Origin: an uncultured Persicobacter sp.
GTDB taxonomy: Bacteria; Bacteroidota; Bacteroidia; Cytophagales; Cyclobacteriaceae
Direction: 5' to 3'
Length of the DNA: 64,000 nucleotides
Assembly: GCA_947498325.1 (NCBI GenBank)
Contig: CANMKE010000021.1
Coordinates: 1-64,000 of the forward strand
The notes beneath the pieces were generated by a model. That model worked only from the letters and a program-made list of their open reading frames with translations. It had not been told where the DNA came from and did no database searches. This document shows, piece by piece, positions 26,709 through 63,770 of this stretch (position 1 is the first letter of the stretch; each line of letters starts with the position of its first letter). Made by a program: the position numbers and the translations under genes.

Positions 26709-28166
26709 TTATTGGATATTTTCTAACTGAAGATCGCCTGTCGCCTCAAGTAAGGACACACCTGCACGACGCTGGTCATAGATCACTTTGTTCAAGGCCA
26801 TTTTGGTTTGTTGCAAATCCGTGATGGCCTCTAACAGTTGGTTCACTGTAGCAAGCCCTTCCGCATATTCTTTTGAGCGGATTTCAAGGCCAAGATTTGC
26901 CTTTTCAACCTTCTGCTGCAATACGGCAATTTTACTGCTATTGACCTGAAAATCAACCTTCGTTTTTTCTAAAGATAAAGCCAATAGTGAAGTAGCGTCC
27001 TCGAGTTTATTCACTGCAATAGTATGGTCTATTTTTGCTATCTGACGTTCATGAGCGGTATGAAAACCATCGAAGATTTCCCAGGTAACCGCTACACCAA
27101 CCATACTTGCAGGGTCCACAACCGCCATATCCTTCATATTAATATACTGCGACGTTCCGAAGGCCATCGCCTTAGGCAGATAACCCGAAATGGTGGCTTT
27201 CTGCTGATATGATCTTGCCGCCACCGATTCCTTCAATGCTGCCACTTCTGGTCGGTGATTGATATCGTTCCCTGTAGAAACCTGCACCCATGGTGTCAAT
27301 ACCACATGATGCATAGCAATTGCTTCGGCAGGCTCTCCTGTAAGTTGCTCAAGACGGGTCAAGACCAACTGCTTATTTCCCGACAGCTCAATGTCTTTGG
27401 TATCAAGATCCAATGAGGCAATTTCTATTTTTTGAAGATCGTATCGGGTAATTAATCCATTGGCCTTCGCTTTTTGGGCTCGCGTCTTTTCCTTATCGAG
27501 CAACTTTCTGGCATCATTCAATACTTGTTCCGAAGCCGAAATCAGCCCTAATTTATCGTAATAATCCGTTACCTCTTTAATCACCTGCCCTTCCTGACGT
27601 TTAACCATCAGGCGTTCAGCGGCAATTTTATGATCCAGCGCCTTGGAAAGATAAGTCACTTTAAGGCCTGAAAACAATACCATTTTCGCAGAGATACCTG
27701 CGTTCCAGATATTCATATCATTTGAAGTCAAGCCAAACGATGACGGAATCTCAGGCAGTTTGCCGATTAACTCCGGCAACATCGCTCCCAAAGCGGGGTT
27801 TCCTGCTGCAATAACTGGCGCCAAACCACCAAGCATCCCACCAAGGTTTTGCCCCATTCCCAAAATTGATTGAGGAGTTTGGATATCATGGACATTCAGA
27901 CCTGCATAAGCATAACCACCATTTAGCGATACCTTTGGGATAAAAGTTCCCCAGGCCATCTTCTTTTGAATTTCCGTTTTGTGATAACCTAATTGTAGAT
28001 TCTGCACTTCCCTGTTTTGGTGCAGGGCCTTTGAAATTAGGTCTTGTAAATAAGCACGGTCCTGGGTCTGCTGTGCTTCCGTATTAATTGATTGTGCTTT
28101 TGACGGCACCCACAGGGTGATGCTAAAAACCATCAAGCAAAAAAATGTCACTTTCCTTTTCATCAT
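26709..28166 (-). CDS. TolC-family outer-membrane efflux protein
   Basis: I chose the paired ATG at 28166/28163 (MMKRKVTFFCL) rather than an upstream TTG, because it places the signal peptide at the N-terminus (about 485 residues; cleavage near SKAQS). Two outer-membrane-efflux repeats with long coiled-coil helices are visible (ISASEQVLNDARKLLDKEK, and the matching second-half helix near EKANLGLEIRSKEYAEG). It begins the export operon TolC-HlyD-ABC permease. Substrate unknown. No TetR regulator is adjacent. Confidence 0.92.
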   Translation of the reverse strand: MMKRKVTFFCLMVFSITLWVPSKAQSINTEAQQTQDRAYLQDLISKALHQNREVQNLQLGYHKTEIQKKMAWGTFIPKVSLNGGYAYAGLNVHDIQTPQSILGMGQNLGGMLGGLAPVIAAGNPALGAMLPELIGKLPEIPSSFGLTSNDMNIWNAGISAKMVLFSGLKVTYLSKALDHKIAAERLMVKRQEGQVIKEVTDYYDKLGLISASEQVLNDARKLLDKEKTRAQKAKANGLITRYDLQKIEIASLDLDTKDIELSGNKQLVLTRLEQLTGEPAEAIAMHHVVLTPWVQVSTGNDINHRPEVAALKESVAARSYQQKATISGYLPKAMAFGTSQYINMKDMAVVDPASMVGVAVTWEIFDGFHTAHERQIAKIDHTIAVNKLEDATSLLALSLEKTKVDFQVNSSKIAVLQQKVEKANLGLEIRSKEYAEGLATVNQLLEAITDLQQTKMALNKVIYDQRRAGVSLLEATGDLQLENIQ

Positions 28167-41531: not shown

Positions 41532-42230
41532 TTAATTTATGTTATCATTAAATTTATAGCCTACCCCTTTAATGGTCACGATCAGGTCATTGCCAATCTT
41601 CTCACGAACCTTCCGCACATGCACATCCACAGTTCGAGGAAGGATATACACATCTGTTCCCCAGATATCCCTTAATAACTCATCCCTTGAGAGTATTTTT
41701 CCTGGTGATTGCGCAAGTGTATAAAGCAACTCAAACTCTTTCTTTGGAAGCGGCAGCTTTTCTCCATGCGTCTCCACGGTGTAACTCGTTTTATCAATGC
41801 GTAGCGAGGGAAACGTCAATACATCCTGCGCATCCATCGTTTTGGGAGAAGTACGCTCCAGGAGGGCCTCTATTCTTCTTTTAAGCGCACGTGGCTTCAC
41901 AGGTTTGATAATATAGTCGTTTGCCCCCATATCGAAGGCTGCAACCTCTGAATACTCTTCAGAACGCGCTGTTAAAAATACAATCAATGCCTGATCAATC
42001 TCAGGATTATTTCTCAGTTGCCTGCAAGCCTCAATGCCATCCATATTCGGCATCATTATATCAAGCAAAATCAAATCTGGTTTGAACACCCTCGCACGCT
42101 CAACGGCTTCAATCCCATCTGCGGCAGTTTCAATGGCATAGCCTGCATTTTTTAAATTATACTCCAGTAAATCGCGGATGTCTTCTTCATCATCCACTAC
42201 CAAAACTTTATGTTGTATTGATTCCATCAT
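41532..42230 (-). CDS. OmpR/PhoB-family response regulator
   Basis: This 232-residue two-component regulator has a receiver domain (about 1-125) with VLVVDDEEDIRDLLEYNL, the phospho-acceptor in LILLDIMMPNMDG, a conserved Thr in FLTARSEE and a lysine in IIKPVKP. The C-terminal winged helix (about 130-230) has the typical LPLPKKEFELLYTLAQSPGK and RTVDVHVRKVREKIG. No histidine kinase is adjacent, so it is an orphan. It is transcribed away from the origin. It resembles the PhoB-like regulators of Bacteroidota. Confidence 0.93.
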   Translation of the reverse strand: MMESIQHKVLVVDDEEDIRDLLEYNLKNAGYAIETAADGIEAVERARVFKPDLILLDIMMPNMDGIEACRQLRNNPEIDQALIVFLTARSEEYSEVAAFDMGANDYIIKPVKPRALKRRIEALLERTSPKTMDAQDVLTFPSLRIDKTSYTVETHGEKLPLPKKEFELLYTLAQSPGKILSRDELLRDIWGTDVYILPRTVDVHVRKVREKIGNDLIVTIKGVGYKFNDNIN

Positions 42231-42397
42231 GTATCTAAAATTACAATGACAATGTTACAACCTACCCGTGAATAAATTTTTGTGCAAAAATTACCATTGC
42301 TTTAAGATATCAGCTTGATGATAACATTCGCTTAACCGCCTATTTTATTTATTTTTAAAGACGCTCCCAAACATTTGTGTTGCAATAAGTTTAGAGG

Positions 42398-42476
42398 TGA
42401 CAAAACAGGTAGCTTGATTCATGTTCCGTCGCACCTAAAAAAGAAAGCTCTCAATTGTCCGCGACAAAATAGGTAC
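42398..42476 (+). repeat. Two dispersed iteron copies
   Basis: TGACAAAACAGGTAG (42398-42412) and CGACAAAATAGGTAC (42462-42476) share the iteron core GACA....AGGTA. They are 64 bp apart, close to three 21-bp periods, and lie left of the AT-rich tract. Confidence 0.75.
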
Positions 42477-42547
42477 GTCCCTTTAATTTACTTTTTAAAG
42501 CAATATCCCAATATTTAAATTCATCTGAAAGACAAAATCAATCGGTG

Positions 42548-42592
42548 TGTTTTGTATTGTTTTATTTTGTTTTAACTGTTTTAATTGTTTTA
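42548..42592 (+). repeat. Helically phased TGTTTTA tracts (putative DNA unwinding element)
   Basis: TGTTTT(G/A) begins at 42548, 42558, 42568, 42577 and 42586, giving spacings of 10, 10, 9 and 9 bp, all on the same face of the helix. The tract is nearly pure A+T and sits just before the tandem iterons, as DNA unwinding elements do in iteron plasmids. Confidence 0.7.
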
Positions 42593-42637
42593 GGCTTTGT
42601 ATCCTTTTGATATACAGATGGTTAGAAAGGGCTATTA

Positions 42638-42783
42638 CGACATAGTAGGTAATCTGCGCGACAGATCATGTATTTGGCGTGACATAGTAGGTAATTGGTA
42701 CGACGTATTGTGGATAAAGTCTGACGTATCATGAACATCACGGACATTTTAGGTATTTAGATAGACATTATAGGGATTGTTGT
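42638..42783 (+). repeat. Seven tandem 21-bp iterons
   Basis: Repeat units begin at 42638, 42659, 42680, 42701, 42722, 42742 and 42763 (steps 21, 21, 21, 21, 20, 21). Each begins with (C/T/G/A)GAC. The best-conserved form is CGACATAGTAGGTAAT (units 1 and 3), with the others diverged. A 21-bp period is two helical turns, so all copies face the same side, as needed for cooperative Rep binding. A possible degenerate copy follows near 42807. Confidence 0.88.
42709..42717 (-). promoter_or_regulatory. DnaA box
   Basis: TGTGGATAA here is the exact reverse complement of the consensus DnaA box TTATCCACA. It lies inside the fourth iteron of the origin, so Rep and DnaA would compete or cooperate at this unit. 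Confidence 0.75.
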
Positions 42784-42858
42784 AAATTTTGTGTGTAGAA
42801 AAATTTTGACGAATTGTGTTTTATTGATACTGGATATTAAATTATTTAATTAGTTGTT

Positions 42859-42995
42859 CCTTTTCTGTCGTAATAACTTTCCAGCCTACCTTTTCTGTCG
42901 CATAATATTGATTTGGGTTTTACAGCAATTTGTGTTGATAGACTCTTCTGTGTTCATGTTCTGTCGGATTTATTTTGGAATATCCCTACAATGTC
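42859..42995 (-). promoter_or_regulatory. Inverted iterons over the rep promoter (candidate autorepression sites)
   Basis: Four minus-strand copies of the iteron core occur. CGACAGAAAAGG is found at 42859-42870 and 42889-42900 (a 12-bp exact repeat 30 bp apart). A third at 42951-42966 ends in CATGAACA, like unit 5. A fourth at 42981-42995 matches unit 7 at 13 of 15 positions. Copies in the rep promoter are classical sites for Rep-dimer autorepression. Confidence 0.7.
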
Positions 42996-43028
42996 GTAGT
43001 TTCGATTTTGAAACGAATGCGACAGATT

Positions 43029-44480
43029 ATGAATATCACTGATCGTTCCGTAGCAGGAATAAAAAACTACAAAATTGTTAAGTCGAATAAGCTTATCAAT
43101 TCAAAACATACATTGAGTCCTTTGCAGTGGCGTTTGATATTATTAACTGCTGCTCAGATTCGCAAAGATGACACCGAATTTAATGAGTGTTGCATTGGTT
43201 TACGTGAACTTTTTGATCTTAAAAAGGGAGATAAAATATCGGATAAGTACAATCAGGCTCGTGAGGCAGCTGTAGGGCTGACCAACTCTTCTGTATATAT
43301 TCAGAAAGGCAAACACTGGGTGGCTTTTCCGTTTGTAACTAAAGCGGAGGGGAATGAAGGAGAAGACTTTATCAAGATTCGATTTGCGCAGGAAATGAAG
43401 CCATTTTTCCTGCAGTTGAATGCCGGAGAATACACCGCTTATAAGCCAATAAATTGTTGGGGATTCGTTAGTGGTCACAGTTTCAGGCTTTATGAGCTGC
43501 TGATTCAGTATTTTCCAAATATTAATAAAAGGAATTTCACCCTTGACAGCTTCAAGAATTTATTAAATGTTGAGGATAAGTATAAGCGATTTTCTGACCT
43601 TAAACGGCGGGTGATTGAGCCTGCTGTTCATGATATCAATTCTTACGAACCCTCTGGGATGTTTGTGGAATATGAGATCAAAAGACGTGGACGATCAGTA
43701 ACGGACATTATCTTCTATATGTCCAAAAAAGGGAATGCTTTAGTTTCTGATGCTGCTGCCGCTGAAATGGGCAAGGTGAATATTGAAGAGCCTGCTGCTA
43801 ATCAGGCTGCGTTGAATTTTGATAAGGTGTCCGCCGAAGAGGTTGTGCCAATCCCTAATCTGTCGGAGGATGAGGAAATTCTTGCTGCCATAGGGTTTAA
43901 GGCCAAAAATAAGGCTGAACAACAAAAGGCGCTTGAGGCTATTTCTCATCTAATTCGCCAGTATGGCCTCATTCAGGTACATAAAAAGGTCTTTGTGGTG
44001 CAGCAAGCCGCCAATGTCAGTAGTCCTATTGGGTATTTAACGATGGCCTTAAAGGATGATTACCAATTGAAAGAGCCCGCAAATGCGACTGCGAAAGCTT
44101 CGGATGCCCAGTCTGCTTATGTGCAAAATAAGCAGAAAGAACAACAGGCGCGGACCGCAAAAGTGCTGCATAAGAAAAAACAAGATGCGATTTCGAAAGA
44201 ATTTGATAAATTCTGGAAGGATCTCTGTTTTCAATATTTGAATGAAAATATTTTCGGGCAGTACCCCAATTATGTGGCTTATCTAAATTCAGATGCCTCT
44301 GCTTATGAGCGTAAATTTTTGGAGGAATGGAACAAAAATAAGCCCTCAGCAGAAGCGAAGAAGTATTTTGGCAGATGGATTATCGGGCAAATTGGAACCA
44401 AGGAGCATCAGGCATATTTGAAAGAAGGTGTTAAATATTATGCGCAGAAGCATCATGATTTTGACTGGGATGCCCTATAG
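43029..44480 (+). CDS. Rep_3-family plasmid replication initiator
   Basis: This 483-residue initiator resembles RepB/RepE/Pi-type proteins and binds iterons to open the origin. The N-terminal half has the Rep_3 winged-helix pattern: IVKSNKLINSKHTLSPLQWR, the FNECCIGLRELFDL block, and SFRLYELLIQYFPNINKRNF with a second winged helix (LDSFKNLLNVEDKYKRFSDL) ending VIEPAVHDINSY. The C-terminal 230 residues are an extra, partly helical tail of unknown role. I prefer the ATG at 43029; the ATG at 43017 and a TTG at 42975 are in frame. An iteron copy (43019-43033) overlaps the start codon. Confidence 0.93.
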   Translation: MNITDRSVAGIKNYKIVKSNKLINSKHTLSPLQWRLILLTAAQIRKDDTEFNECCIGLRELFDLKKGDKISDKYNQAREAAVGLTNSSVYIQKGKHWVAFPFVTKAEGNEGEDFIKIRFAQEMKPFFLQLNAGEYTAYKPINCWGFVSGHSFRLYELLIQYFPNINKRNFTLDSFKNLLNVEDKYKRFSDLKRRVIEPAVHDINSYEPSGMFVEYEIKRRGRSVTDIIFYMSKKGNALVSDAAAAEMGKVNIEEPAANQAALNFDKVSAEEVVPIPNLSEDEEILAAIGFKAKNKAEQQKALEAISHLIRQYGLIQVHKKVFVVQQAANVSSPIGYLTMALKDDYQLKEPANATAKASDAQSAYVQNKQKEQQARTAKVLHKKKQDAISKEFDKFWKDLCFQYLNENIFGQYPNYVAYLNSDASAYERKFLEEWNKNKPSAEAKKYFGRWIIGQIGTKEHQAYLKEGVKYYAQKHHDFDWDAL

Positions 44481-48400: not shown

Positions 48401-49279
48401 TTATGTTGGTGAGTTTGTAATTTCTTGTAATTGATCAATTAAGTTACGAAGCTGGTGAAAGTCTTCTGGCGTTGAGTTTGAATCAATGCGGCGTAATACT
48501 TTGTTGATTTCTTTTTTCTTAATATCAGTAGGCGTAAGTGTCTTTTTAACCGATGGTTTTTTCTGAGGTTTATGCTTGCTGATCAGTTGTTGAATAGTTT
48601 CAGCCTGCTCTTTAACTTCAGTTTCGGTAAGTTTTGCAAGGCCTTGGACATCTGATTTTCGAATTTTTGTATCCCCCGAAAGGATAGACTCCTTCAGGGC
48701 TGGGTCAGTCTTTCCAATCAGATCAACGCCTGTGGCATAGTCCGCATTATTCCTGACAGATTTCGGTGAAGTCTTGTATTCCTCGGCAAGACGCACCTCC
48801 GTTTTTACTGAAGTAGCAACCTGGTGTTGGTCTCCCGTTCTCTTTTGCCCACCTTGTGTCCCCTTTTCTCGCTGATAGCGCAAGCCTATAAAATAGGCAC
48901 GTTGCTCGTCAGTGAGGTTTCTTCGGCCAAGCTGATTATTGATCATCCAGTCTTTAGCCGCCTCCATATTTTTAAACTCAAGAAGCTTGAAGTCAAAATG
49001 AAGTTGGTGTTTTTGGGTGATGCTGTAACGGTTATGACCATCCACGAGCACATATTGGCCTTCTGTTTTCCAAATTAATATCGGTTCCCTAAGTCCTTCC
49101 TCAAGGATATTCGCCTCCAACTGCTCATACTCTTCTTTTTGTAGCGCAGGAATCATTTGCTTGAGCTCGTCATTGATGATGATATTACTCTTTATCACCT
49201 CCTTCGAGTCTCCCAAGAAATTAGAAGTTGCTTTTTTTGCAACATTCTTTTCTTTAGCCATTTGGAATTTTTTTGCCAT
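48401..49279 (-). CDS. parB: ParB-like partition protein with atypical GHNR motif
   Basis: This 292-residue protein is the DNA-binding adaptor of the partition system, starting 10 bp after parA. The ParB N-terminal domain (about 40-115) reads LREPILIW then YVLVDGHNRYSI; the canonical CTP-binding GERRxR is replaced by DGHNRY. A central HTH-like part follows (NQLGRRNLTDEQRAYFIGLR, then LAEEYKTSPKSVRNNADYA). The C-terminal tail is basic (SKHKPQKKPSVKKT) and ends in a short helical dimerisation-type segment. The ATG at 49261 is an alternative start. Its likely binding sites are the five palindromes beyond parA. Confidence 0.85.
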   Translation of the reverse strand: MAKKFQMAKEKNVAKKATSNFLGDSKEVIKSNIIINDELKQMIPALQKEEYEQLEANILEEGLREPILIWKTEGQYVLVDGHNRYSITQKHQLHFDFKLLEFKNMEAAKDWMINNQLGRRNLTDEQRAYFIGLRYQREKGTQGGQKRTGDQHQVATSVKTEVRLAEEYKTSPKSVRNNADYATGVDLIGKTDPALKESILSGDTKIRKSDVQGLAKLTETEVKEQAETIQQLISKHKPQKKPSVKKTLTPTDIKKKEINKVLRRIDSNSTPEDFHQLRNLIDQLQEITNSPT

Positions 49280-49289
49280 AAAATCAGAA

Positions 49290-50066
49290 TCAATTAAAAG
49301 TTTCGACCAATTCTTTTGTTAAGTTGAGGTAATCTTTTGCCCCGTTGGAAGTCGGTGCATAATCAAGAATATGTTGCCCTATTTCTACAGATTCAGCCAG
49401 GGAGATATTCTGACGGATATTGGTTTTCATCAATAGATCATCTCCAATCAGTTCGCTTACCTGATTCACGGCTTCCTGTGAAAGGACTGCACGGCTATTA
49501 TACTGAGTGAAAAAAGCACCCGCCAAAGCCAATTCATTATTCGCACCAGCATCTTTTATTTCCTCAATAATGGAAATGACTTTACGTAATCCATCGAGGC
49601 TGTATTTTTGTGCATGCAAAGGCACAATCACGCGGCTTGCTGCGACCAATGCATTAACGGTTATGATTCCAAGCGATGGAGGGCAATCCAATAAAATGAA
49701 ATCATATTTGTCATGAATTTCGGCAATGGTTTTTTTGAGCTTAAATTCTCGGCCCAGGCTTGCGTTCAATTCTGTTTCATAATCAGCAAGAGAATCGTTA
49801 CTGCAAGTCATGTGCAGGTTTTCCTCCAATGAAATAATGATGTCTTCGAGCTTGTAATTTTTTCGGAATACTGACGTGATGTTTCGGTCATCAGACATTT
49901 CAAAGCCCAAACCATTGGAAAGGTTGCCCTGCGAGTCCAAATCCATGATCAAGGTACGGTATCCTAATTTGGCTAAGCATGCGCCCATACTGGCGACACT
50001 TGTTGTTTTTGCCACTCCCCCTTTGCGGTTGGCAAATGCTAAAATAATGGGTTGTTTCTTTGTCAT
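49290..50066 (-). CDS. parA: ParA-family partition ATPase
   Basis: This 258-residue type Ib-like ParA has the deviant Walker A NRKGGVAKTTSVASMGACLA, Walker A' LIMDLDSQGNLSNGLG and Walker B KYDFILLDCPPSLG, followed by the typical VNALVAASRVIVPLHAQKYSLDGL. There is no N-terminal DNA-binding extension, so autoregulation would fall to ParB. It is the first gene of the parAB operon. The first centromere palindrome lies about 110 bp upstream of its start, within promoter range. Confidence 0.96.
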   Translation of the reverse strand: MTKKQPIILAFANRKGGVAKTTSVASMGACLAKLGYRTLIMDLDSQGNLSNGLGFEMSDDRNITSVFRKNYKLEDIIISLEENLHMTCSNDSLADYETELNASLGREFKLKKTIAEIHDKYDFILLDCPPSLGIITVNALVAASRVIVPLHAQKYSLDGLRKVISIIEEIKDAGANNELALAGAFFTQYNSRAVLSQEAVNQVSELIGDDLLMKTNIRQNISLAESVEIGQHILDYAPTSNGAKDYLNLTKELVETFN

Positions 50067-51510
50067 TATATTTAAAATGAATCGGCTTACTCATCGACTT
50101 GCCTTGATCGCTACTGCTGCAATTGCTTCCTCAAAAGATGATTTATAAAAATCGCTGAAAAATGCTTTTGGGATGAAGTGGTAAAATTTACCACTTTACG
50201 ATACGAATTGTAGCTCTATTTTTGTTCTGAGAACTTTTTTGGCTGTCCTGCTTTGGAGATTATAAAGGTATAAATTTTGTTTTTATTCTCACTCCTTGTC
50301 AAGAAAAGTTTTCTTTTGATTCGTAAAAATTCATCGTTTTTCCATTAAATCGCATACGATTTCCAAATAATTATTGAAGTGGTAAATTTTACCACTTCAA
50401 TAATGGGTGTTTGATTTGGTCGTGAAGGTGCTTTCTCCTGATTAAATTATTGGAGTGGTATCGTTTTATTTTTCTGAATCGATACCTATTTTCATTGAGG
50501 TGCCGAGGCGTGCTTTGGTGAAGTGGTAAAATTTACCACTTGAAATTCGATCTACCATATTACAATTTACACGTTTTTGGGTGTGATAAATGAATTAGAC
50601 TTCTGTAGAAAGGCAAGTGCTTTGCTACTGTTGCGATGTTCTCAGATGGTAGGCTACAACTACAATTTTCTTTCCCGCAATAGATTATCCTCGTCACGTT
50701 AGGCACTCCAAATTTTTTGACTTTCTATGTAGAAATGTATGTAATGCTCCTACCCTATCTTGACTTTGGCACCTTATGGCTAAAGAACCGATAGTGCTAT
50801 CGTTTCAAACAACCTCTTCTATTTGTGAAGTGGCAAAATTTACCACTTTGATTTCTGCTAAATAATGCTGTGTCTATTCCGAGTTACTGCGGTTTTGTAT
50901 ATGGGCCTTTTGCGTGGGAATAGCGATCTTTGAAGAAGAATAGTGGTTAGATCCCTAAATTATTCATGATTTTCTATTGTCCGTAAATGTCGCAGAATCA
51001 TACAGATTTTTCATTCGCTACTGAATACTCCTTTTCAAACTGCGTATTGCAAGACTTCCGAAATCTGCCATCGTATTTAAATCCCTCAAGGAATGAATTG
51101 CTAATGGATATTAGTGAGGCTTTGCTTTTACCCTTGTCTTATTATTCTAAATTGACAGGGCTTAATGAGAAAAGGGGCTGTTCATGAAGTGGTAAAATTT
51201 ACCACTTTAATTGTTGCAGACTTTAACTATTGGCTTGATTTGATTGCTTGGCGATAAATTCGGAAGTTATCAAGAGTCTCGTTCTGAAGAAAAAGACAGA
51301 ATTTTTTGATATATCAATTGAGCGAAATAAAATTTGGCAAAAAGTAATGATCAGTATTTTGTTGATGGAAAGGTGTCCGTTTGCTACGCTTTAAGCATAT
51401 GGAATTAGGCGTCTTAGCGAAATATTAGTTGGTTTTGCGGCCCAATTTATATGCACTTTATTTTGTATTTTAAAGTTTTTAATTACGATTCAAACTAAAA
51501 CCTAACGATA
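50067..51510. other. Non-coding partition region
   Basis: This gene-free stretch of about 1.4 kb is occupied by the five parS-like palindromes and AT-rich filler. A 66-codon frame at 50987-51187 ends exactly at the fifth palindrome and shows no protein features. Near 50453-50490 a half-site (GAGTGGTA) and a small inverted repeat (TGGTATCG / CGATACC) are seen. Confidence 0.6.
50176..51207. repeat. Five-copy palindromic centromere (parS-like) array
   Basis: A 21-bp palindrome with 10-bp arms AAGTGGTAAA / TTTACCACTT and one central base occurs at 50176-50196, 50377-50397, 50521-50541, 50828-50848 (one T to C change) and 51187-51207. The steps are 201, 144, 307 and 359 bp. The second copy extends to a 35-bp perfect palindrome (50370-50404). 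No copy was noticed elsewhere in the window. Location upstream of parA and exact repetition point to ParB binding sites. Confidence 0.85.
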
Positions 51511-53683: not shown

Positions 53684-54163
53684 TTATTCTTTTACCAAAG
53701 GAGTATTTACGCCTTGAGCAATGCGTAGTTGTGTATCTACAACATTTTCAATTTGGAAGAATCTGACAGCGACATAAACATTGATTTCTTTTTGAATGCG
53801 CTTGAAATAACGTTCTTGAATTTTCAGAATATTTTTTTCTTTTTTGAAGTAGTTTTTAGCAACTTCATCAAGTTGGTCTGCTGAGAGTTTTGCTTTTTCC
53901 AACTCAGCAAAGGCGATTAAGTTTTTGATAACATCTAAAGAATAATTGGACATTTCTTTTTCGTAATCAGCATAAATAGCCCAAAAAGCCTCGCTGTGCT
54001 CAGGCTTCAATTGCATATTTTCGACAAAAACAGCCTTTTTTTCCAACTGAATTTCTGAGTGAATCATTTGGATTTCTTCATTCGAAATATTGGTCTTTTG
54101 TGCATTAACATTGGCGAAAGTAAGACAAATAAACGCAGGAATTAGAATGAATAATTTTTTCAT
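53684..54163 (-). CDS. Secreted helical protein of unknown function
   Basis: This 159-residue protein has a signal peptide (LFILIPAFICLTFANVNAQ) and an almost entirely helical, charged mature part. The pattern EHSEAFWAIYADYEKEMSNY and NYFKKEKNILKIQERYFKRI resembles Bacteroidota periplasmic proteins with a FW..Y..Y core that sometimes sit beside sigma or sensor genes; a Spy/CpxP-like fold is possible. No regulator is adjacent here. Confidence 0.65.
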   Translation of the reverse strand: MKKLFILIPAFICLTFANVNAQKTNISNEEIQMIHSEIQLEKKAVFVENMQLKPEHSEAFWAIYADYEKEMSNYSLDVIKNLIAFAELEKAKLSADQLDEVAKNYFKKEKNILKIQERYFKRIQKEINVYVAVRFFQIENVVDTQLRIAQGVNTPLVKE

Positions 54164-54216
54164 GGTTGATCGTATTAAGTTATTGATTGATGTTCAGATT
54201 TTGTAAGCAATATAGG

Positions 54217-55599
54217 TTATTTTAATGTTTTTCTCATGTAATTTAGTAAATCAATTGGGGTAATTAATCCGAGAAATTTGCCTTGATCGATCAGTATAGC
54301 CGTTAATCCCTGTTTTAGCAATGACTGTAACTCACTTAGGCTTGCTTCTTTGTTAATGAGTTTCAGATCGGAAGTCATACAGTTACTCACAGGATGATTA
54401 AAGTTCAGTTGTTGATCGTTTAATGCCACCAAAAGATCGGACTCATCCACTATACCGATAATCTTATCCTGATCCATGATTGGAAGTTGAGATATTTCAT
54501 ACAGCTTCATGTTATTCAAGGCCATATCCACGGTATCTTCCTTTTTTAAGGTAATCACTTCCCCCAGGTCATACCTTCGAGAGAGGAGATCTCTTAAATC
54601 GCCGAATTGTTCCTGTCGGATAAAACCTCGGTCTTTCATCCAAAAATCATTGTACATTTTAGACAGGTATTTGTTTCCTGTGTCGCAGACAAACGTAACG
54701 ACATTTTTAGGTGAAGTTTGCGCTTTACAGTAAGCGATGGCAGCTGCAAGGAGTGTTCCTGATGAAGAACCACCCAATAAACCTTCCTTGCGAAGAAGTT
54801 CCCGTGCAGTATTCAGGCTTGTTTCATCATCGACAGTAATCGCTTCACTTACGGCCGAAAAATCACCGATGTCAGGAACAAAATCCTCCCCGATTCCTTC
54901 GACCACCCAAGAGCCTGCCTGATCAAACTTTCCTTTATTGATAAAGTCCGCCATGATGCTGCCTTTTGGGTCTGCAAGGATAATTTCAGTCGCTGGATAG
55001 TGTGCTTTAAAATATTTGCTCAAGCCCGTAACCGTTCCCGAAGAGCCTACACCTACGACAATCGCATCTACCTTGCCTTGCAGTTGCTCGGCAATTTCAG
55101 GACCTGTAGTGGTGTAGTGTGCTTTAGGGTTGGCGCTATTTTCAAACTGATTGATATAATAGGCGTTGGGGGTTTCTTGGGCAATTTTTTTAGCTAAATC
55201 TTGGTAATATGCTGGATGACCTTTGTTTACATCAGATCTTGTTATAATAATTTTAGTGCCCATTGCACGCAGGTGCTGCACTTTCTCCTGACTCATTTTA
55301 TCAGGAATCACCAAAATTAACTCGTATCCTTTTACAGCGGCGACCAATGCCAAGCCAATGCCCGTATTTCCAGCAGTGGCTTCTACAATGGTTCCTCCAG
55401 GTTTTAAATACCCCTTTTCTTCGGCATCAATGATCATCGACAAACCAATTCGATCTTTTATAGACCCACCGGGGTTGAGCGATTCCATTTTCAGGTATAA
55501 ATCACAAACGCCTGTGTCTATACGATTTACCTTAACCATTGGCGTTTTACCAATCAGGTCAAGGCTATCCATTAGAAGTTTAGGGCAATCATTTACCAT
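54217..55599 (-). CDS. Cystathionine beta-synthase with CBS-domain pair
   Basis: This 460-residue PLP enzyme condenses serine (or O-acetylserine) with homocysteine or sulfide. The PLP lysine is in LNPGGSIKDRIGLSMI and the phosphate loop in VEATAGNTGIGLAL; VVGVGSSGTVTGLSKYFK and SSGTLLAAAIAYC are also present. Two C-terminal CBS domains (about 330-455) begin GEVITLKKEDTVDMALNNMK and NCMTSDLKLINKEASLSE and may sense adenosyl ligands. Unlike the human enzyme there is no haem domain. Cystathionine or cysteine synthesis cannot be distinguished by sequence reading. Confidence 0.92.
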   Translation of the reverse strand: MVNDCPKLLMDSLDLIGKTPMVKVNRIDTGVCDLYLKMESLNPGGSIKDRIGLSMIIDAEEKGYLKPGGTIVEATAGNTGIGLALVAAVKGYELILVIPDKMSQEKVQHLRAMGTKIIITRSDVNKGHPAYYQDLAKKIAQETPNAYYINQFENSANPKAHYTTTGPEIAEQLQGKVDAIVVGVGSSGTVTGLSKYFKAHYPATEIILADPKGSIMADFINKGKFDQAGSWVVEGIGEDFVPDIGDFSAVSEAITVDDETSLNTARELLRKEGLLGGSSSGTLLAAAIAYCKAQTSPKNVVTFVCDTGNKYLSKMYNDFWMKDRGFIRQEQFGDLRDLLSRRYDLGEVITLKKEDTVDMALNNMKLYEISQLPIMDQDKIIGIVDESDLLVALNDQQLNFNHPVSNCMTSDLKLINKEASLSELQSLLKQGLTAILIDQGKFLGLITPIDLLNYMRKTLK

Positions 55600-55682
55600 G
55601 CTGTTGGGCTTTATTTTTTGGGTTTGATCATTTAATTGAACGATAAAACCATAAAAATAGCCGAAAACCTTACAGATTTATT

Positions 55683-56189
55683 TTAGGAGGACTGAAGATA
55701 CTGGCGCCAGCTTTTATTGGTCTTGATGGTATTTTTAAGCATCAATAGAAAAGAGGGCCTAAAGGGTTGATGGCGCAAAGTCATATTGGCTTGTTCAATG
55801 CTCCTATCTCCTTTTTTTGCATTGCATCTTTTACAGGCTGTTACGAGGTTTTTCCAGGTGGAAGGTCCGCCTTTCGAACGAGGAATGAGGTGGTCAAGGG
55901 TGAGGTCCTTGGTTTCGTCACAGTAAACACACTGATGATTGTCCCTTTTGAATATATTGGGCTTAGAAAGAATCACTTTCTGAAATGGGACATTAACATA
56001 ATTTTTCAGCTTGATGATGGACGGCAGCGGATAGCGATGGTTAATGGTGCGCAGATATTCTCCTTCAGCCTGATTGACTAATTCAGCTTTATTCAAATAT
56101 ACCAATAAAAAGGCCTTGTAACTGTCACATACTGCCAAAGCACTATAATCAGCATTGAGTAGAAGGGCGTGTTTTTGTAAATTCTTCAT
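55683..56189 (-). CDS. HNH endonuclease
   Basis: This 168-residue protein has an HNH domain in its middle third: CVYCDETKDLTLDHLIPRSK, continuing as GGPSTWKNLVTACKRCNAKK. The two CxxC zinc pairs and the catalytic DH and N are intact. The N-terminal region (ALLLNADYSALAVCDSYKAF) matches a group of stand-alone HNH proteins common in Bacteroidota and Cyanobacteria, of unknown cellular role. It has no restriction partner. Confidence 0.9.
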   Translation of the reverse strand: MKNLQKHALLLNADYSALAVCDSYKAFLLVYLNKAELVNQAEGEYLRTINHRYPLPSIIKLKNYVNVPFQKVILSKPNIFKRDNHQCVYCDETKDLTLDHLIPRSKGGPSTWKNLVTACKRCNAKKGDRSIEQANMTLRHQPFRPSFLLMLKNTIKTNKSWRQYLQSS

Positions 56190-56333
56190 AAATCAAAATG
56201 GCTCCGTTTGATAAGTATATATAAAATTTAGCCATTTTGTTTTAATTTTTGGTACTTATGTAACTTTTAATGATTTGAGCACCAGTATTTTATATTTCGG
56301 TATGCATTGAGCATCCACGAAATGGTTTATATC

Positions 56334-56348
56334 CCCCAGCCACTGGGG
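56334..56348. repeat. GC-rich hairpin in an AT-rich spacer
   Basis: CCCCAG, loop CCA, CTGGGG stands out in otherwise AT-rich DNA upstream of the HNH gene. It has no U-tract on either strand. It may be a dispersed repeat fragment or an mRNA leader structure. Confidence 0.35.
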
Positions 56349-56463
56349 TGGGTTCATAATGTAAAAATGCAGTAATCAGTAAAAGTAAGCCATTAAAATT
56401 AGTTTATCCGCAAATGGAATAATCACTGATCATGGCCTACCTTTTATGATGTTCCTAATGCGA

Positions 56464-57369
56464 TCAAGGAATTTCTTCGCCAAGATAAGCCTCATACAAT
56501 ACGAACCATTCCTGGGTCGTTAATTGATGTTGCAATCCTTCAAGGGCGTCTTTCAATCGCTGTATTTTTGTTGTTCCAAGCACGGGTACAGGTAGTGCAG
56601 GATGCTGACATAACCAAATCAACAGTAGCTGATCGAGTTGCACACCATATTTTTCCATGATGGGCTGAGCAGCGTCAATGATCCTGTTTTCTCGTTCACC
56701 TTTTTCCGCTTTGAATAACTTCCCTCCGCCTAAAGGAGACCAGATGGTTGGCTGGTAGCCTTTTTGTCGGGCTTGATCAAAGGTCCCGTCTGTAAATGCA
56801 TCAGGCTTTAGTAAATTGCACTCTACCTGGTTGGTGGACAGCGGTGTAAGACTGTTAAGGTGCTCAAATTGGCTGGGTGTAAAATTGGAAACTCCAAAGT
56901 GGAGCACTTTACCTTCTTGCTTGAGTTCGTCAAAAACTTCTGCAACAACCGAGGTGTCCACTAAGGGGCTTGGTCGGTGAAGAAGTAAAAAATCAAGGTA
57001 ATCAGTATTAAAATTCATCAGCGATTGTTCAACGGAGGAACGAATATGTTTTGCGCTGTAATCATAATGTTTTGTAGTAAAAGCTGGACGAGCATCGCAA
57101 GGCATGCAAATACCACATTTTGTAATAATCTTCATGGAGGATCTCAGGCTGCTGTGATCCGCCAAGGCCTTCCCAAATTCCTGTTCAGTGGAGTAATTTC
57201 CATAAATATCAGCATGGTCAAAAGTATCAATGCCATTTTCTAAACAGGCCTCTATAAGGGCAAGATATTCCTTGGTATTAAATTGTGCACCCCACTTTCC
57301 CCATGTCATGGTTCCTGCAATTACAGGGGAGAAAAGAGCGGGTAGCTTATTGTTACGATCAGTATTCAT
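56464..57369 (-). CDS. Aldo/keto reductase (YdhF-like)
   Basis: This 301-residue NADPH-dependent oxidoreductase has a TIM-barrel AKR fold. Landmarks: GTMTWGKWG near the N-terminus, NGIDTFDHADIYGNYSTEQE with the catalytic Asp and Tyr, LLLHRPSPLVD (catalytic His), HFGVSNFTPSQFEHL, NQVECNLL and the cofactor-binding PVPVLGTTKIQRLKDAL. It is similar in layout to E. coli YdhF. Substrate unknown. It is transcribed alone, divergent from icmF. Confidence 0.92.
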   Translation of the reverse strand: MNTDRNNKLPALFSPVIAGTMTWGKWGAQFNTKEYLALIEACLENGIDTFDHADIYGNYSTEQEFGKALADHSSLRSSMKIITKCGICMPCDARPAFTTKHYDYSAKHIRSSVEQSLMNFNTDYLDFLLLHRPSPLVDTSVVAEVFDELKQEGKVLHFGVSNFTPSQFEHLNSLTPLSTNQVECNLLKPDAFTDGTFDQARQKGYQPTIWSPLGGGKLFKAEKGERENRIIDAAQPIMEKYGVQLDQLLLIWLCQHPALPVPVLGTTKIQRLKDALEGLQHQLTTQEWFVLYEAYLGEEIP

Positions 57370-57522
57370 ATTGTAAAGATAGTTGTACTCCCTAATTTGT
57401 CGCGCAAGATAACAGAATCAAATCATTTTTGAATTTAATGGGCAGATTAATTATTCTAACGTTTGCGACTTGATCAGAAAATGATCAATTTATATTAGAA
57501 GTGAACCCAAAATAGCCCTTAT

Positions 57523-60500
57523 ATGAAAGCCGAGAAGCCTTATCAGCCTAAAAATTTTGTACGTATTGTTACTGCTGCCTCCTTGTTTGATGGGCACGAT
57601 GCTGCGATTAATATTATGCGTCGGCTGATGCAACATGCAGGGGTAGAAGTGATCCATCTTGGTCATAATCGGTCTGTAAATGAGATTGTTGACTGTGCCA
57701 TTCAGGAGGATGCACAGGCCATTGCCATTACTTCCTATCAGGGGGGGCATTTGGAATTTTTTAAGTATATGTATGACCTGCTTTCGGAAAAGGGAGCGGC
57801 GGATATTCTGATTTTTGGTGGTGGCGGGGGGACTATTCTGCCCGATGAAATTACTGAGCTACACCAATACGGCATCAAAAAAATTTATTCTCCAGATGAT
57901 GGCAGAAAAATGGGCTTGCAGGGCATGATCAATGATCTGGTGCGTAAGGCGGATTTTCCGCGTGGTGAAAATGAAATTTCCGTCCATGATCTGTCGGTGA
58001 AGAATCCCTATTTAGTCGCAAAAGCAATTTCTGCTGTGGAAAATGAAATTTCGGTCCATGATTTGTCGCTCAAAGAGCTATATAAACAAGCGGAATCAAC
58101 GAACATTCCTGTACTTGGGATAACCGGAACAGGTGGGGCGGGAAAATCTACCGTTACAGATGAACTTATACGACGACTGATTAGGGATTATTCTGACAAA
58201 ATGATTGGGATTATTTCTGTTGATCCCAGTAGAAGGCGAACAGGAGGGGCGCTGCTTGGCGATCGAATAAGAATGAATTGTATTCATAATGAGCAGGTTT
58301 ATCTTCGATCCATGGCTACTCGCGCTGAAAATGTTGCGTTAAGTGGACATATTAGGGACGCGGTGAACATTCTAAAAGTGGCGGCTTATGATTTCATCAT
58401 TTTGGAAAGCTCGGGTATTGGTCAATCAAGCTCGGAAATGGTGGATATTGCTGATCATACGGTCTATGTCATGACGCCAGAATATGGAGCAGCGAGTCAG
58501 TTAGAGAAAATAGATATGCTTGATTTTGCGGACTTTATCGTGCTGAATAAGGCCGACAAAAGAGGTGCTGAAGATGCACTTCGAGATTTGCGCAAACAAT
58601 ACCGAAGAAATCATCAGGATTGGGAGACGCCCGACGAGCAACTACCCGTTTTTATGACCGTCGCTTCTCATTTCAATGGGCAGGGTGTCGAGCATACTTA
58701 TCAGCAGATTGTCCATAAATTGTCGCAAAACCATCGCCGTACCTATTCTGTCACGGAAGAGGAGTCCATAAAACGTCGCAATGAAATTATTCCTCCTGCA
58801 CGCGTCCGTTACTTGTCTGAGATAGCAGAAGTTATCAGAAACTATAATACCAAAGTGGCACGCGACAGTGAAACAGCACAGCAGGTTCAGGCACTGGAAA
58901 TGACGAAGGAAATGCTCCCTGATTTGTCAACGATTGAAACAAAAATAGCCGAGTTGCGACAAAAAATGGACCATGAGAACTGGGCTGAATTATCTATCTG
59001 GGAGGCGTTGTCGGAGGAGTATAGTCGGGAAGAGGTTGAATATCAGGTTAGAAACAAAAAGATTAAAGTCAGTAATTATACCCTATCATTGTCGGGCACT
59101 AAGTTGCCCAAAGTACTGATGCCGACATATCAGGGATTTGGTGATCGATTACGGTGGTTACGTCAGGAAAATTTGCCTGGTCGATTTCCTTATACAGCGG
59201 GGGTGTTTCCTTTTAAGCGAGAAGGGGAGGATCCCACGAGGATGTTTGCTGGTGAGGGGGGACCTGAGCGTACCAATCGGCGTTTTCATTATGTTAGTGC
59301 AGGTTTACCCGCCAAACGCTTGTCAACCGCTTTTGACTCCGTTACACTATATGGCTCAGACCCAGCAGAAAGACCTGATATTTATGGAAAAGTGGGAAAC
59401 TCTGGGGTTTCTGTTTGTTGTCTTGATGATGCCAAAAAACTGTATGCTGGTTTTGATTTATCAGACCCTAAGACGTCGGTGTCGATGACTATTAATGGCC
59501 CTGCCGCAGTGATAACAGCCTTTTTTATGAATGCCGCAATTGATCAGAATTGTGAGAAATACATTCATCAGCATGGATTGGAGTCTGAAGTGCGACAAAA
59601 AATGGACGATATTTTTAAGCGCAGAGGACAGAAAAAGCCGACGTATCAGGGACCGCTTCCGAGTGGAAACGACGGATTGGGGACGTTTTTGTTAGGGGTA
59701 TCTGGTTCCGATGTTTTACCCGAGGAGATATACCGACAAATCAGGGACGAAACGTTGTCTCAGGTGAGGGGGACAGTTCAGGCGGATATTTTGAAGGAAG
59801 ATCAGGCACAAAATACCTGTATATTTTCGACAGATTTCTCATTGCGACTGATGGGGGATATGCAGTTATATTTTACAGCGCACCAAATTAATAATTTCTA
59901 TTCCGTTTCAATATCTGGTTACCATATTGCCGAAGCAGGAGCCAATCCGATTACACAGTTGGCCTTTACGCTTGCTAACGGTTTTACCTATGTCGAATAT
60001 TATTTGGCACGGGGGCTGAAGGTGGATGATTTCGTCCCTAATCTGTCGTTCTTTTTCAGCAATGGTATTGATCCCGAATATGCAGTGATCGGACGTGTGG
60101 CGCGTAGAATTTGGGCCAAGGCGATGAAATATAAATACCATGCAAACAGCCGAGCGCAGAAACTGAAATATCATATTCAGACCTCGGGTCGGTCGCTTCA
60201 TGCACAGGATATTGCTTTCAATGATATCCGCACAACCTTGCAGGCCCTATATGCGATTTATGATAATTGCAATAGCCTACATACCAATGCGTACGATGAG
60301 GCGATTACAACTCCAACGGAGGAATCTGTGCGTCGGGCAATGGCGATTCAGCTGGTGATTAATAAAGAGCTTGGCTTAGCAAAAAATGAAAATCCGCTGC
60401 AGGGCGCGTTTATCATTGAGGCGCTCACAGATTTGGTCGAAGAGGCTGTTTTAGCTGAATTTGACCGCCTGACAGATCGGGGCGGTGTGCTGGGTGCGAT

Positions 60501-62225: not shown

Positions 62226-63770
62226 TTATTGTTTACAGTCCATGTTGATGTTCTTTACATCGAGCTCAATATCATTTTCTGTGTTCACCAATTGAATATC
62301 TTTTCCCGCCCCGCAAATGGTTACATTTTCAAAAGTTAACTGAACAACATCATCTCCGTCTCCTGGATAAATATTGAATAAAGTACGCATTCTACTGGCG
62401 TGAAATGTGACGTTTTTGATCAGAAAATCGTGGCAAATGTTCCCCTCAGTGCTCAGGATCGATACCGGTGATCCTTTAAACTCTCCTCCTTCGAGGTGAA
62501 AATGCCTGATAGGGTCTCTGAAAGTAAAATAGGGAGTCTGACTATTGTTACAATTGACCTGCGCATTTTTTATTTGGAGATTGTTACCACCAATGCCATC
62601 GAATTTATCCCAAACGCCTCCTTGTTGAGTATATTCACCAAAGAAAAAGGCTGCATTCAAAGCATCTGGACGTAGATCAATGACGGGATTGATAATCTGA
62701 TTATGGTCGCTCCGAAGTAAAAAACCGCCGTTACCATTTTTTACGGTACAGTTCAGCCACTGAATACCAGAGGCAGCACCGTGGGTACTAAATCCCGCTT
62801 TCCAGTCATTGGTCGAGCTACAATTTTTAACAATAATATTGCGCGTAACGGGACTGGCGCCATAGCCTGAAATTTCAAAAGAATGTTTGTTGTTCTTCCC
62901 GTGGCAGTTGCTAATCTCCCCATTTTCAGCGCCAGAGATGTAAAAACCATAGCCATGTGGGAGTTTCTTTTCATGTCCCTGTAAAATGCCTTCTGCCTCT
63001 AAATTCTCGTACGTAAAGCCATATACATGAGAGATGCGAAATCCTTGTTTTGCTTTTTCTGTAACATCCTTTAATGCGACATTTTTGTAAAAGGCATTGG
63101 TTGCATTTTTTATATATAGACAGACCGATCCATTTTTCATTTCTACGGAAAGGTTTTGGATGCCCACATGATCAGCCAGTTCATAATAAGTTAAAGAGAC
63201 TTTCTTATTATAGTCATCTTTTAGACCTCCTTTAATTGTACAGCTGTTTCCACTGACAGATGAAATGATAACACTCTCTCCTTTTTTATAATAGCTGCGA
63301 AGGCCATTGTAATCATCACTTGAGGTAATTAATACACGATCTCCCGGGTTGATCCATTGTGCTAAATTTTTTGAAGAATTGATCGTTTTTCCTCCTTTGG
63401 ATAATTTGATTTTTCCAAGGCTCATCAAGCTTCGTTTGCCACCCAATACAACCCCTTGCTCTACATTGGTAAAATGAATTTTTGTCTTCTGCTTGCCTTT
63501 TCCTTGCAGGATATTATTCTGGCCAATAATCGTTTCGAGGCAGTAAAAATCCCCCGAAGAAAGTTCCACGACCTTCCCAGATTTCATGGCTTGCATAATT
63601 TCTTCCTGGTCATTATTGCCATCGCAAATAAATTGCGCACTCTTCTTTTCCTGCGGGGAAGCATTTTGTGCGGCGACCACTACCTTACCTTGCGAAAATG
63701 CCTGAGGTGAATAAGCGATATAAAAAAAGCTAAGCAAAAAAATGCATAGTCCAGAATAGCGTTGCTTCAT
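62226..63770 (-). CDS. Secreted right-handed beta-helix protein
   Basis: This 514-residue protein has a signal peptide (LCIFLLSFFYIAYSPQAFSQ). The mature part shows stacked short strands with N-rich turns (KNVALKDVTEK, FTYENLEAEGILQ, GEISNCHGKNNKHSFEISGY, RNIIVKNCSSTNDWKAGFST, IQWLNCTVKNGNGGFLLRSD), the parallel beta-helix fold of pectate lyases and glycoside hydrolases. A lyase or depolymerase role is possible but no catalytic residues can be assigned. No PUL genes adjoin it. Confidence 0.75.
   Translation of the reverse strand: MKQRYSGLCIFLLSFFYIAYSPQAFSQGKVVVAAQNASPQEKKSAQFICDGNNDQEEIMQAMKSGKVVELSSGDFYCLETIIGQNNILQGKGKQKTKIHFTNVEQGVVLGGKRSLMSLGKIKLSKGGKTINSSKNLAQWINPGDRVLITSSDDYNGLRSYYKKGESVIISSVSGNSCTIKGGLKDDYNKKVSLTYYELADHVGIQNLSVEMKNGSVCLYIKNATNAFYKNVALKDVTEKAKQGFRISHVYGFTYENLEAEGILQGHEKKLPHGYGFYISGAENGEISNCHGKNNKHSFEISGYGASPVTRNIIVKNCSSTNDWKAGFSTHGAASGIQWLNCTVKNGNGGFLLRSDHNQIINPVIDLRPDALNAAFFFGEYTQQGGVWDKFDGIGGNNLQIKNAQVNCNNSQTPYFTFRDPIRHFHLEGGEFKGSPVSILSTEGNICHDFLIKNVTFHASRMRTLFNIYPGDGDDVVQLTFENVTICGAGKDIQLVNTENDIELDVKNINMDCKQ

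Follow-up and report, generated by a model that had tools for sequence, protein, structure and literature searches.

Introduction

Replicons of the Rep_3 family follow a standard course, in which Rep binds the iterons, melts AT-rich DNA and starts replication, and the rep gene is autoregulated. To our knowledge, the initiator sites known to lie remote from an origin come from chromosomes or from chromosome II of Vibrio cholerae.

As described in the excerpted parts of the respective sources, RctB sites outside ori2 of V. cholerae chromosome II have been shown to titrate the initiator and to inhibit replication (Baek and Chattoraj 2014, PMC3937223); the RctB sites have been reviewed (PMC6090056), and RctB binds eight regions on Chr1 and six on Chr2 (PMC11711613). 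Escherichia coli concentrates DnaA boxes near oriC, in an arrangement described as ideal for titration (PMC12371093). For extrachromosomal replicons, the initiation 'timers' are listed as an open question in a text whose excerpted part does not mention Persicobacter (PMC13342612).

The Rep_3 replicons of the Persicobacteraceae, with rRNA operons on small plasmids, were described by Anda et al. 2023 (PMC10645730), and the main text of that source holds no description of the origin analyzed here. A full-text literature search returned, among the matches listed, which were mostly judged from the title and the start of the abstract, no paper that we recognised as dealing with this origin or its remote sites. 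This work reports a group of sites, remote from a Rep_3 iteron origin, that match the origin matrix far beyond synonymous-codon chance and whose synonymous positions have been conserved in a diverged relative.

Results

The replicon and its relatives

The window, a stretch of 64,000 nucleotides from an uncultured Persicobacter sp., belongs to a contig of 98 kb from a 5.66-Mb assembly of 194 contigs, and 13 Rep_3 matches above cut-off are found in the whole assembly. Over 3601 aligned bp, its origin region has 98.1% identity with that of pPP3 of Persicobacter psychrovividus NBRC 101262 (NZ_AP025295.1; circular, 379,741 bp) and, across 66% of its length, 75% with that of JZB09-Plasmid2 of Persicobacter sp. 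JZB09 (JZB09-P2, CP012860.1; circular, 858,818 bp); the Rep protein shares 99.8% identity with the pPP3 Rep and 81% with the JZB09 Rep. Judged by these alignments, the replicon of the window has already been sequenced and annotated, as plasmid pPP3, whose annotation gives the order rep, nagB, ROK, parB-like, parA. Searches of genome contigs found no further relatives of the replicon, and the independent lineages number two only, the window and pPP3 being near-identical.

A plasmid-type set of rep, parA, a parB-like gene and a parS candidate is carried by a large replicon, with relatives of 380 and 859 kb, a combination that is expected of a chromid. Metabolic genes annotated on pPP3 include acs, phosphofructokinase and nagB, no rRNA or tRNA genes were found within the 64-kb window, and the GC content of pPP3 is 41.5%, against 43.0% for the whole genome (the latter from PMC10645730, Table 1). 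Between pPP3 and JZB09-P2, a collinear block of ~41 kb (pPP3 length) holds the origin, the parS candidate and the remote cluster, and the adjacent blocks are rearranged (14 blastn blocks of more than 600 nt, pPP3 203,283-244,843 versus JZB09 892-47,547, with pPP3 150-310 kb compared). The five near-palindromes beside parA (Table 1) are likely the parS of the replicon; at up to two mismatches they have no copy elsewhere in the 5.66-Mb assembly.

A Rep_3 iteron origin at 42.6 kb

The preliminary description had placed seven repeat units at 42638-42783 on a strict 21-bp period. All seven are present at these coordinates, but the period is near-strict rather than strict (21, 21, 21, 21, 20 and 21 bp), because the step from 42722 to 42742 is 20 bp. 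JZB09-P2 carries a seven-unit array with the same position and spacing, and has its 20-bp step at the equivalent position (26767 to 26787 in CP012860.1). At a lag of 21, the segment 42637-42783 is identical to itself at a fraction of 0.524, whereas the remaining lags between 15 and 29 give 0.19-0.32, and 0 of 9122 other 147-bp windows have a lag-21 value as high; Tandem Repeats Finder by itself reported only 2.9 copies, at 42638-42698. With at most one mismatch, the window contains 25 copies of GACAnnnnAGGTA, whereas 100 shuffles gave 8.3 on average and no more than 15, and extra sites of the iteron motif flank the array on both sides and in both orientations.

The initiator gene beside the origin matches both Rep3_N (85.6 bits) and Rep3_C (66.4 bits) above the Pfam cut-offs, and residues 14-230 of Rep resemble 1rep_C, a replication initiator whose structure is known (E 3e-11), which we take to be RepE of F. 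The C-terminal half of the protein (~250 residues, window 43749-44480) has no Pfam match, and aligns with other Rep_3-type proteins of its own genome, for example over residues 298-481 with one on contig C58. In both complete circular replicons, the cumulative GC-skew minimum falls inside the origin region, at 230,891 in pPP3, which converts arithmetically to ~42,544 in the window, and at 26,978 in JZB09-P2, and the maxima lie elsewhere, at 63,350 and 424,215, respectively; the skew is therefore consistent with bidirectional replication from this origin.

JZB09 shows a TGTTTTA-repeat stretch comparable to the AT-rich stretch beside the iterons. A very similar stretch recurs in two origins with different iterons, at 42556-42594 in the window and at 1137-1159 of locus L002, and TGTTTTANNTGTTTTAGG has one more exact match, at contig C24:75306. 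Within L002, which is part of contig C34, the motif of the window replicon itself occurs with 21.5 bits at 989-1007 (near 33795 of C34 in genome G000), ~500 bp upstream of a second Rep_3 gene that seems, by eye, to have iterons of a different kind (CCCCATGGTACGTCGTAAAA type); this site could possibly reflect cross-talk between replicons or chance, and the search for relatives found no plasmid similar to the replicon of the C34 rep gene.

The exact DnaA box announced for the fourth unit, TTATCCACA, was indeed found there on the minus strand, overlapping that unit, and is one of three exact copies in the window (shuffle mean 0.65; three copies in 1 of 100 shuffles). The JZB09 origin region has two one-mismatch DnaA boxes only, at other places, and the box is weak evidence for an origin because it is not conserved there. 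Site 43018, which overlaps the start codon of rep, forms an inverted pair with 42980 on the opposite strand, and this pair may represent an autoregulatory operator of rep. The single site inside rep, at 43849, is by itself within chance, since 223 of 2000 synonymous shuffles contained at least one site of at least 15 bits.

The Rep domains, the array in JZB09 and the GC-skew minima support the assignment of a Rep_3 iteron origin at 42.6 kb, as the preliminary description had proposed in calling the region a complete plasmid-type origin beside a Rep_3 gene; that the origin is complete is presumed. By itself, the array is an ordinary plasmid replication origin, one more of a known type, and its annotation is routine. 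It is true, as was also remarked, that the repeat is unfamiliar from studied plasmids, but this is unremarkable, because seven other Rep_3 replicons of the Persicobacteraceae all differ from one another in their 20-22 bp iteron and the replicon has already been annotated as pPP3.

Table 1. Features of the origin, the partition region and the remote cluster, in window coordinates.
Feature	Position	Strand	Remarks
Response regulator gene	41532-42230		directly left of origin; also in pPP3
Outlying iteron-like sites (42396..42478)	42396, 42415, 42460	+, -, +	left of AT-rich stretch; 14.4, 17.8 and 20.0 bits
AT-rich stretch (75% A+T)	42540..42600	+	four 9-bp ATTGTTTTA-type repeats; candidate unwinding element beside iterons
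Seven direct-repeat iterons	42638..42783	+	consensus ~CGACAnAnnAkGkA; conserved in JZB09-Plasmid2
19-bp scored sites of the seven iterons	42636, 42657, 42678, 42699, 42720, 42740, 42761	+	
Exact DnaA box inside iteron 4	42709..42717	-	kept in pPP3, absent from aligned JZB09 unit
Sites in rep promoter and leader (42854..43036)	42854, 42884, 42950, 42980, 43018	-, -, -, -, +	candidate autoregulation operator
rep, Rep_3-family initiator, 483 aa	43029..44480	+	Rep3_N and Rep3_C, then ~250 residues without Pfam match; start per pPP3 annotation
Single strong site inside rep	43849..43867	-	20.4 bits
parB-like gene	48401..49279	-	ParB_N below Pfam cut-off (21.4 versus 26.3 bits); annotated ParB N-terminal domain protein in pPP3
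parA (AAA_31)	49290..50066	-	
Candidate parS, five 21-bp near-palindromes AAGTGGTAAAATTTACCACTT	50176..51207 (50176, 50377, 50521, 50828, 51187)		beside parA
Remote-cluster site between aldo/keto reductase and mutase genes	57386..57404	-	19.2 bits; JZB09 counterpart gap has a site (9332)
Fused B12-binding / MeaB GTPase / acyl-CoA mutase gene, 1114 aa	57523..60867	+	IcmF-type architecture; contains remote cluster
Remote cluster in mutase gene	57980..60050	both	15 sites of at least 13 bits (17 of at least 11); candidate Rep-titration/handcuffing locus
Minus-strand remote sites in mutase gene	57980, 58002, 58052, 58709, 58737, 58762, 60032	-	
Plus-strand remote sites in mutase gene	58172, 58343, 58955, 59121, 59591, 59637, 59668, 59732	+	

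A second cluster of origin-type sites in the mutase gene

Sites were scored with a 19-bp matrix that was trained iteratively on three origin regions, those of the window, pPP3 and JZB09, with zero remote sites used and 46 sites in all, among which those of the window and pPP3 are near-duplicates. At a cut-off of 13 bits, just missed by unit 7 of the array (12.8 bits), the window holds 31 sites, namely 14 at the origin, one in rep and 16 at 57386-60050, 15 of the latter inside the mutase gene. The preliminary description thus overlooked a second, equally large cluster of origin-type sites at 57.4-60.05 kb, ~15 kb from the origin, which is visible already by a one-mismatch pattern search. Even a matrix built from the seven units alone gave 35 matches of at least 10 bits on the 98-kb contig, of which 16 lie in 57386-60050, 13 at the origin and rep, and 6 elsewhere.

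The remote sites are irregularly spaced and lie on both strands, and make up the busiest 3-kb window of both the contig and pPP3, with 16 sites of at least 13 bits against 15 at the origin. pPP3 has its sites at the equivalent place, and the rest of its 380 kb has two sites of at least 14 bits. Across the 5.66-Mb assembly, GACAnnnnAGGKA occurs 55 times, 16 of them in the origin and remote places of the 98-kb contig, a total that is not enriched genome-wide, because a reversed control pattern gave 81; CGACAnWnnATGGA occurs 9 times, 5 of them within the remote cluster, and the lists of these two exact patterns across the assembly showed no other dense cluster. Similarly, JZB09-P2 as a whole is barely enriched, with 112 matches of at least 9 bits against 86-104 in Markov samples, and therefore the remote signal resides in the clustering and not in the total.

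The remote sites exceed codon chance and are conserved

In 1000 synonymous-codon shuffles of each mutase gene, the number of sites of at least 15 bits reached a maximum of 4, against 10 observed in the window, 11 in pPP3 and 6 in JZB09, and the observed counts were reached by 0 of 1000 shuffles at each of four cut-offs in each of the three genes. Sites of at least 15 bits are found in only 2 of 237 open reading frames of at least 200 aa in pPP3 and in 4 of 452 in JZB09-P2, the mutase gene being at the top of both. Homologous mutase genes of other genomes, at 63-68% identity, lack them altogether (0 of 28, with one site of at least 13 bits in 2 of 28; the partial L141 is included in this count and the partial L142 left out).

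The mutase proteins of the window and JZB09 are 73.9% identical, and 13 of the 17 window sites of at least 11 bits score at least 10 bits at the aligned JZB09 place, as do 12 of 16 in the reverse direction, which leaves four sites without a counterpart on each side. Among codons for the same residue, the third positions differ in 9 of 45 cases inside sites versus 411 of 750 outside (window versus JZB09; Fisher p 4e-6), and no circular shift of the site pattern gave a value as low (0 of 1114 with window-defined sites and 0 of 1115 with JZB09-defined sites, at each of three cut-offs). These comparisons between two lineages argue that the remote sites are maintained by selection.

Other Rep_3 replicons and a further cluster in JZB09-P2

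Of the 12 other Persicobacteraceae records, seven were scanned, over 60-140 kb each and one as a whole (pPP8 60 kb, pPP5 100, pPP6 117, JZB09-P5 138, JZB09-P8 all 81, pAT1 140 and pAT3 132), with weak matrices for JZB09-P8 and pAT1. All seven carry a 20-22 bp array directly upstream of rep, different in sequence in each, and within the scanned stretches none has a remote cluster; JZB09-P5 has two sites 3.5 kb away from its own origin. Therefore, a remote cluster is no general need of Rep_3 megareplicons, and the feature belongs to the lineage of the window replicon.

In JZB09-P2, additional sites lie at 3.7 kb and in the neighbouring aldo/keto reductase gene. A further cluster was observed on the other side of its origin, at a distance of 27-30 kb, where five sites of at least 13 bits (CP012860.1 54464-57580) are located within genes that have no homologue on pPP3 and in the gaps between them. 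The counts in the gene at 54107-55849 were reached by 0 of 2000 shuffles at cut-offs of 11, 13 and 15 bits and by 39 of 2000 at 17 bits; those in the gene at 56173-59559 are marginal (7 of 1000 shuffles at 11 bits and 59 of 1000 at 13).

Two other assignments were considered for the remote cluster and rejected. It is probably not a centromere, because a separate parS candidate exists, the five 21-bp palindromes beside parA, which are unique in the assembly at up to two mismatches and make the better parS; and a second origin at this place was discarded, the GC-skew minimum being at the rep origin.

Discussion

Based on the clustering and the conservation of the remote sites, we propose that a Rep_3 theta-type origin, together with a remote cluster that acts as a locus for Rep titration and/or handcuffing, is probably the explanation of this region. 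First, Rep monomers would bind the seven in-phase iterons and melt the adjoining AT-rich stretch, from which bidirectional replication of the theta type would start, and the sites around the rep start codon could provide autoregulation. Second, the remote sites are predicted to bind Rep as well, approximately doubling the number of Rep sites, and would be duplicated soon after initiation, because they are near the origin. The cluster may then lower free Rep or pair with origins, and thereby keep this large replicon of low copy number from initiating again. That the cluster works as a titration and/or handcuffing locus we infer with less confidence than the binding of Rep; it is considered the most likely role because the cluster belongs to the same replicon, is duplicated early and has about as many sites as the origin. 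The anatomy of the sites by itself does not separate titration, handcuffing, an enhancer and a structural role.

Among the other readings, it is unlikely that the cluster binds Rep but acts positively or structurally, as a looping enhancer or as an organiser linking the origin and the parS region. In R6K, looping activates distant origins, and the origin, the parS candidate and the cluster stay together in the collinear block with rearranged neighbours; however, the sites are unevenly spaced and occupy both strands, and a positive distant cluster is absent from the seven other Rep_3 replicons scanned. We regard as very unlikely that the motif belongs to another DNA-binding protein acting at both places, such as a nucleoid protein or the response regulator of 41532-42230, even though the gene of the latter is directly left of the origin in the window and also in pPP3, since the seven other replicons each have an array of their own sequence directly upstream of rep, and strong sites overlap the rep start codon. 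That there is only an ordinary Rep_3 origin, and a chance or codon-driven resemblance without function in the mutase gene, would agree with the absence of remote clusters from the seven other replicons, but is highly improbable in view of the synonymous shuffles, the 28 homologues without a site of at least 15 bits and the conserved synonymous positions. Equally improbable, finally, is that Rep regulates the transcription of the mutase gene, as 15 sites spread through the coding sequence on both strands rather than the promoter, and the further JZB09 cluster sits in unrelated genes, notwithstanding the site at 57386 in the gap upstream of the gene and its JZB09 counterpart at 9332.

Returning to titration and/or handcuffing by Rep sites, a broader proposal would be that a plasmid-derived replicon controls its initiation via a locus for Rep titration/handcuffing that is encoded by the synonymous positions of a metabolic gene close to its origin, and that such loci arise anew in any genes that happen to be located at tens of kb from the origin. 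The latter part is suggested by the further cluster of JZB09-Plasmid2 at 54.5-57.6 kb, because pPP3 has no homologues of the genes in and between which it sits. This proposal is put forward tentatively, its chances being a little under even. If it is true, the replicon would represent a stage in the turning of a plasmid into a chromosome-like replicon. A dense and conserved group of Rep_3-type sites within a coding gene would show that a plasmid initiator can gain a chromosome-like titration control, and that the codon choice of an unrelated enzyme can be restricted by the control of replication. The cluster allows a clean test, because synonymous recoding removes the sites and leaves the protein unchanged.

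Dense initiator-type sites that are apart from the origin yet near it, and on the same replicon, are one mark of a titration locus, and such sites were found here. One likeness is to the RctB sites on chromosome II of V. cholerae, an iteron replicon whose initiator sites likewise form a cluster at tens of kb from its own origin (PMC3937223, excerpted text). However, that system comprises six sites over 74 kb, at a distance of 40 kb, as well as 39-mers (PMC3937223), whereas the present one, known from sequence, is of the Rep_3 type and packs 16 sites into 2.7 kb at a distance of 15 kb, with a single gene containing all of them except one. The datA locus and the origin-proximal excess of DnaA boxes in E. 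coli are similar in being dense initiator sites near an origin that are replicated early, but concern DnaA and a chromosome, with datA described as non-coding, in place of a plasmid-type initiator and a coding gene (PMC12371093, excerpted text). The Persicobacteraceae Rep_3 plasmids of PMC10645730 are of the same family, from genomes with multiple Rep_3 replicons, and P. psychrovividus was sequenced in that study; its topic is rRNA plasmids, and its main text uses the word 'iteron' three times, in a general remark and in references.

In conclusion, the origin resembles the Rep_3/RepE-type iteron origins of F, P1, R6K and pPS10 in its adjacent Rep with Rep3_N and Rep3_C, its direct repeats about two helical turns apart, the AT-rich stretch beside them, the inverted sites at the rep promoter and the DnaA box (present in 2 of the 3 sequences compared here). 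It differs from them in belonging to a replicon of 380-859 kb, in its longer Rep (483 aa), in an exact DnaA box that is not conserved in JZB09, and in the extra remote site cluster within a coding gene. This in-gene remote cluster appears to be the new part, and may have its counterpart in the RctB sites on chromosome II of V. cholerae.
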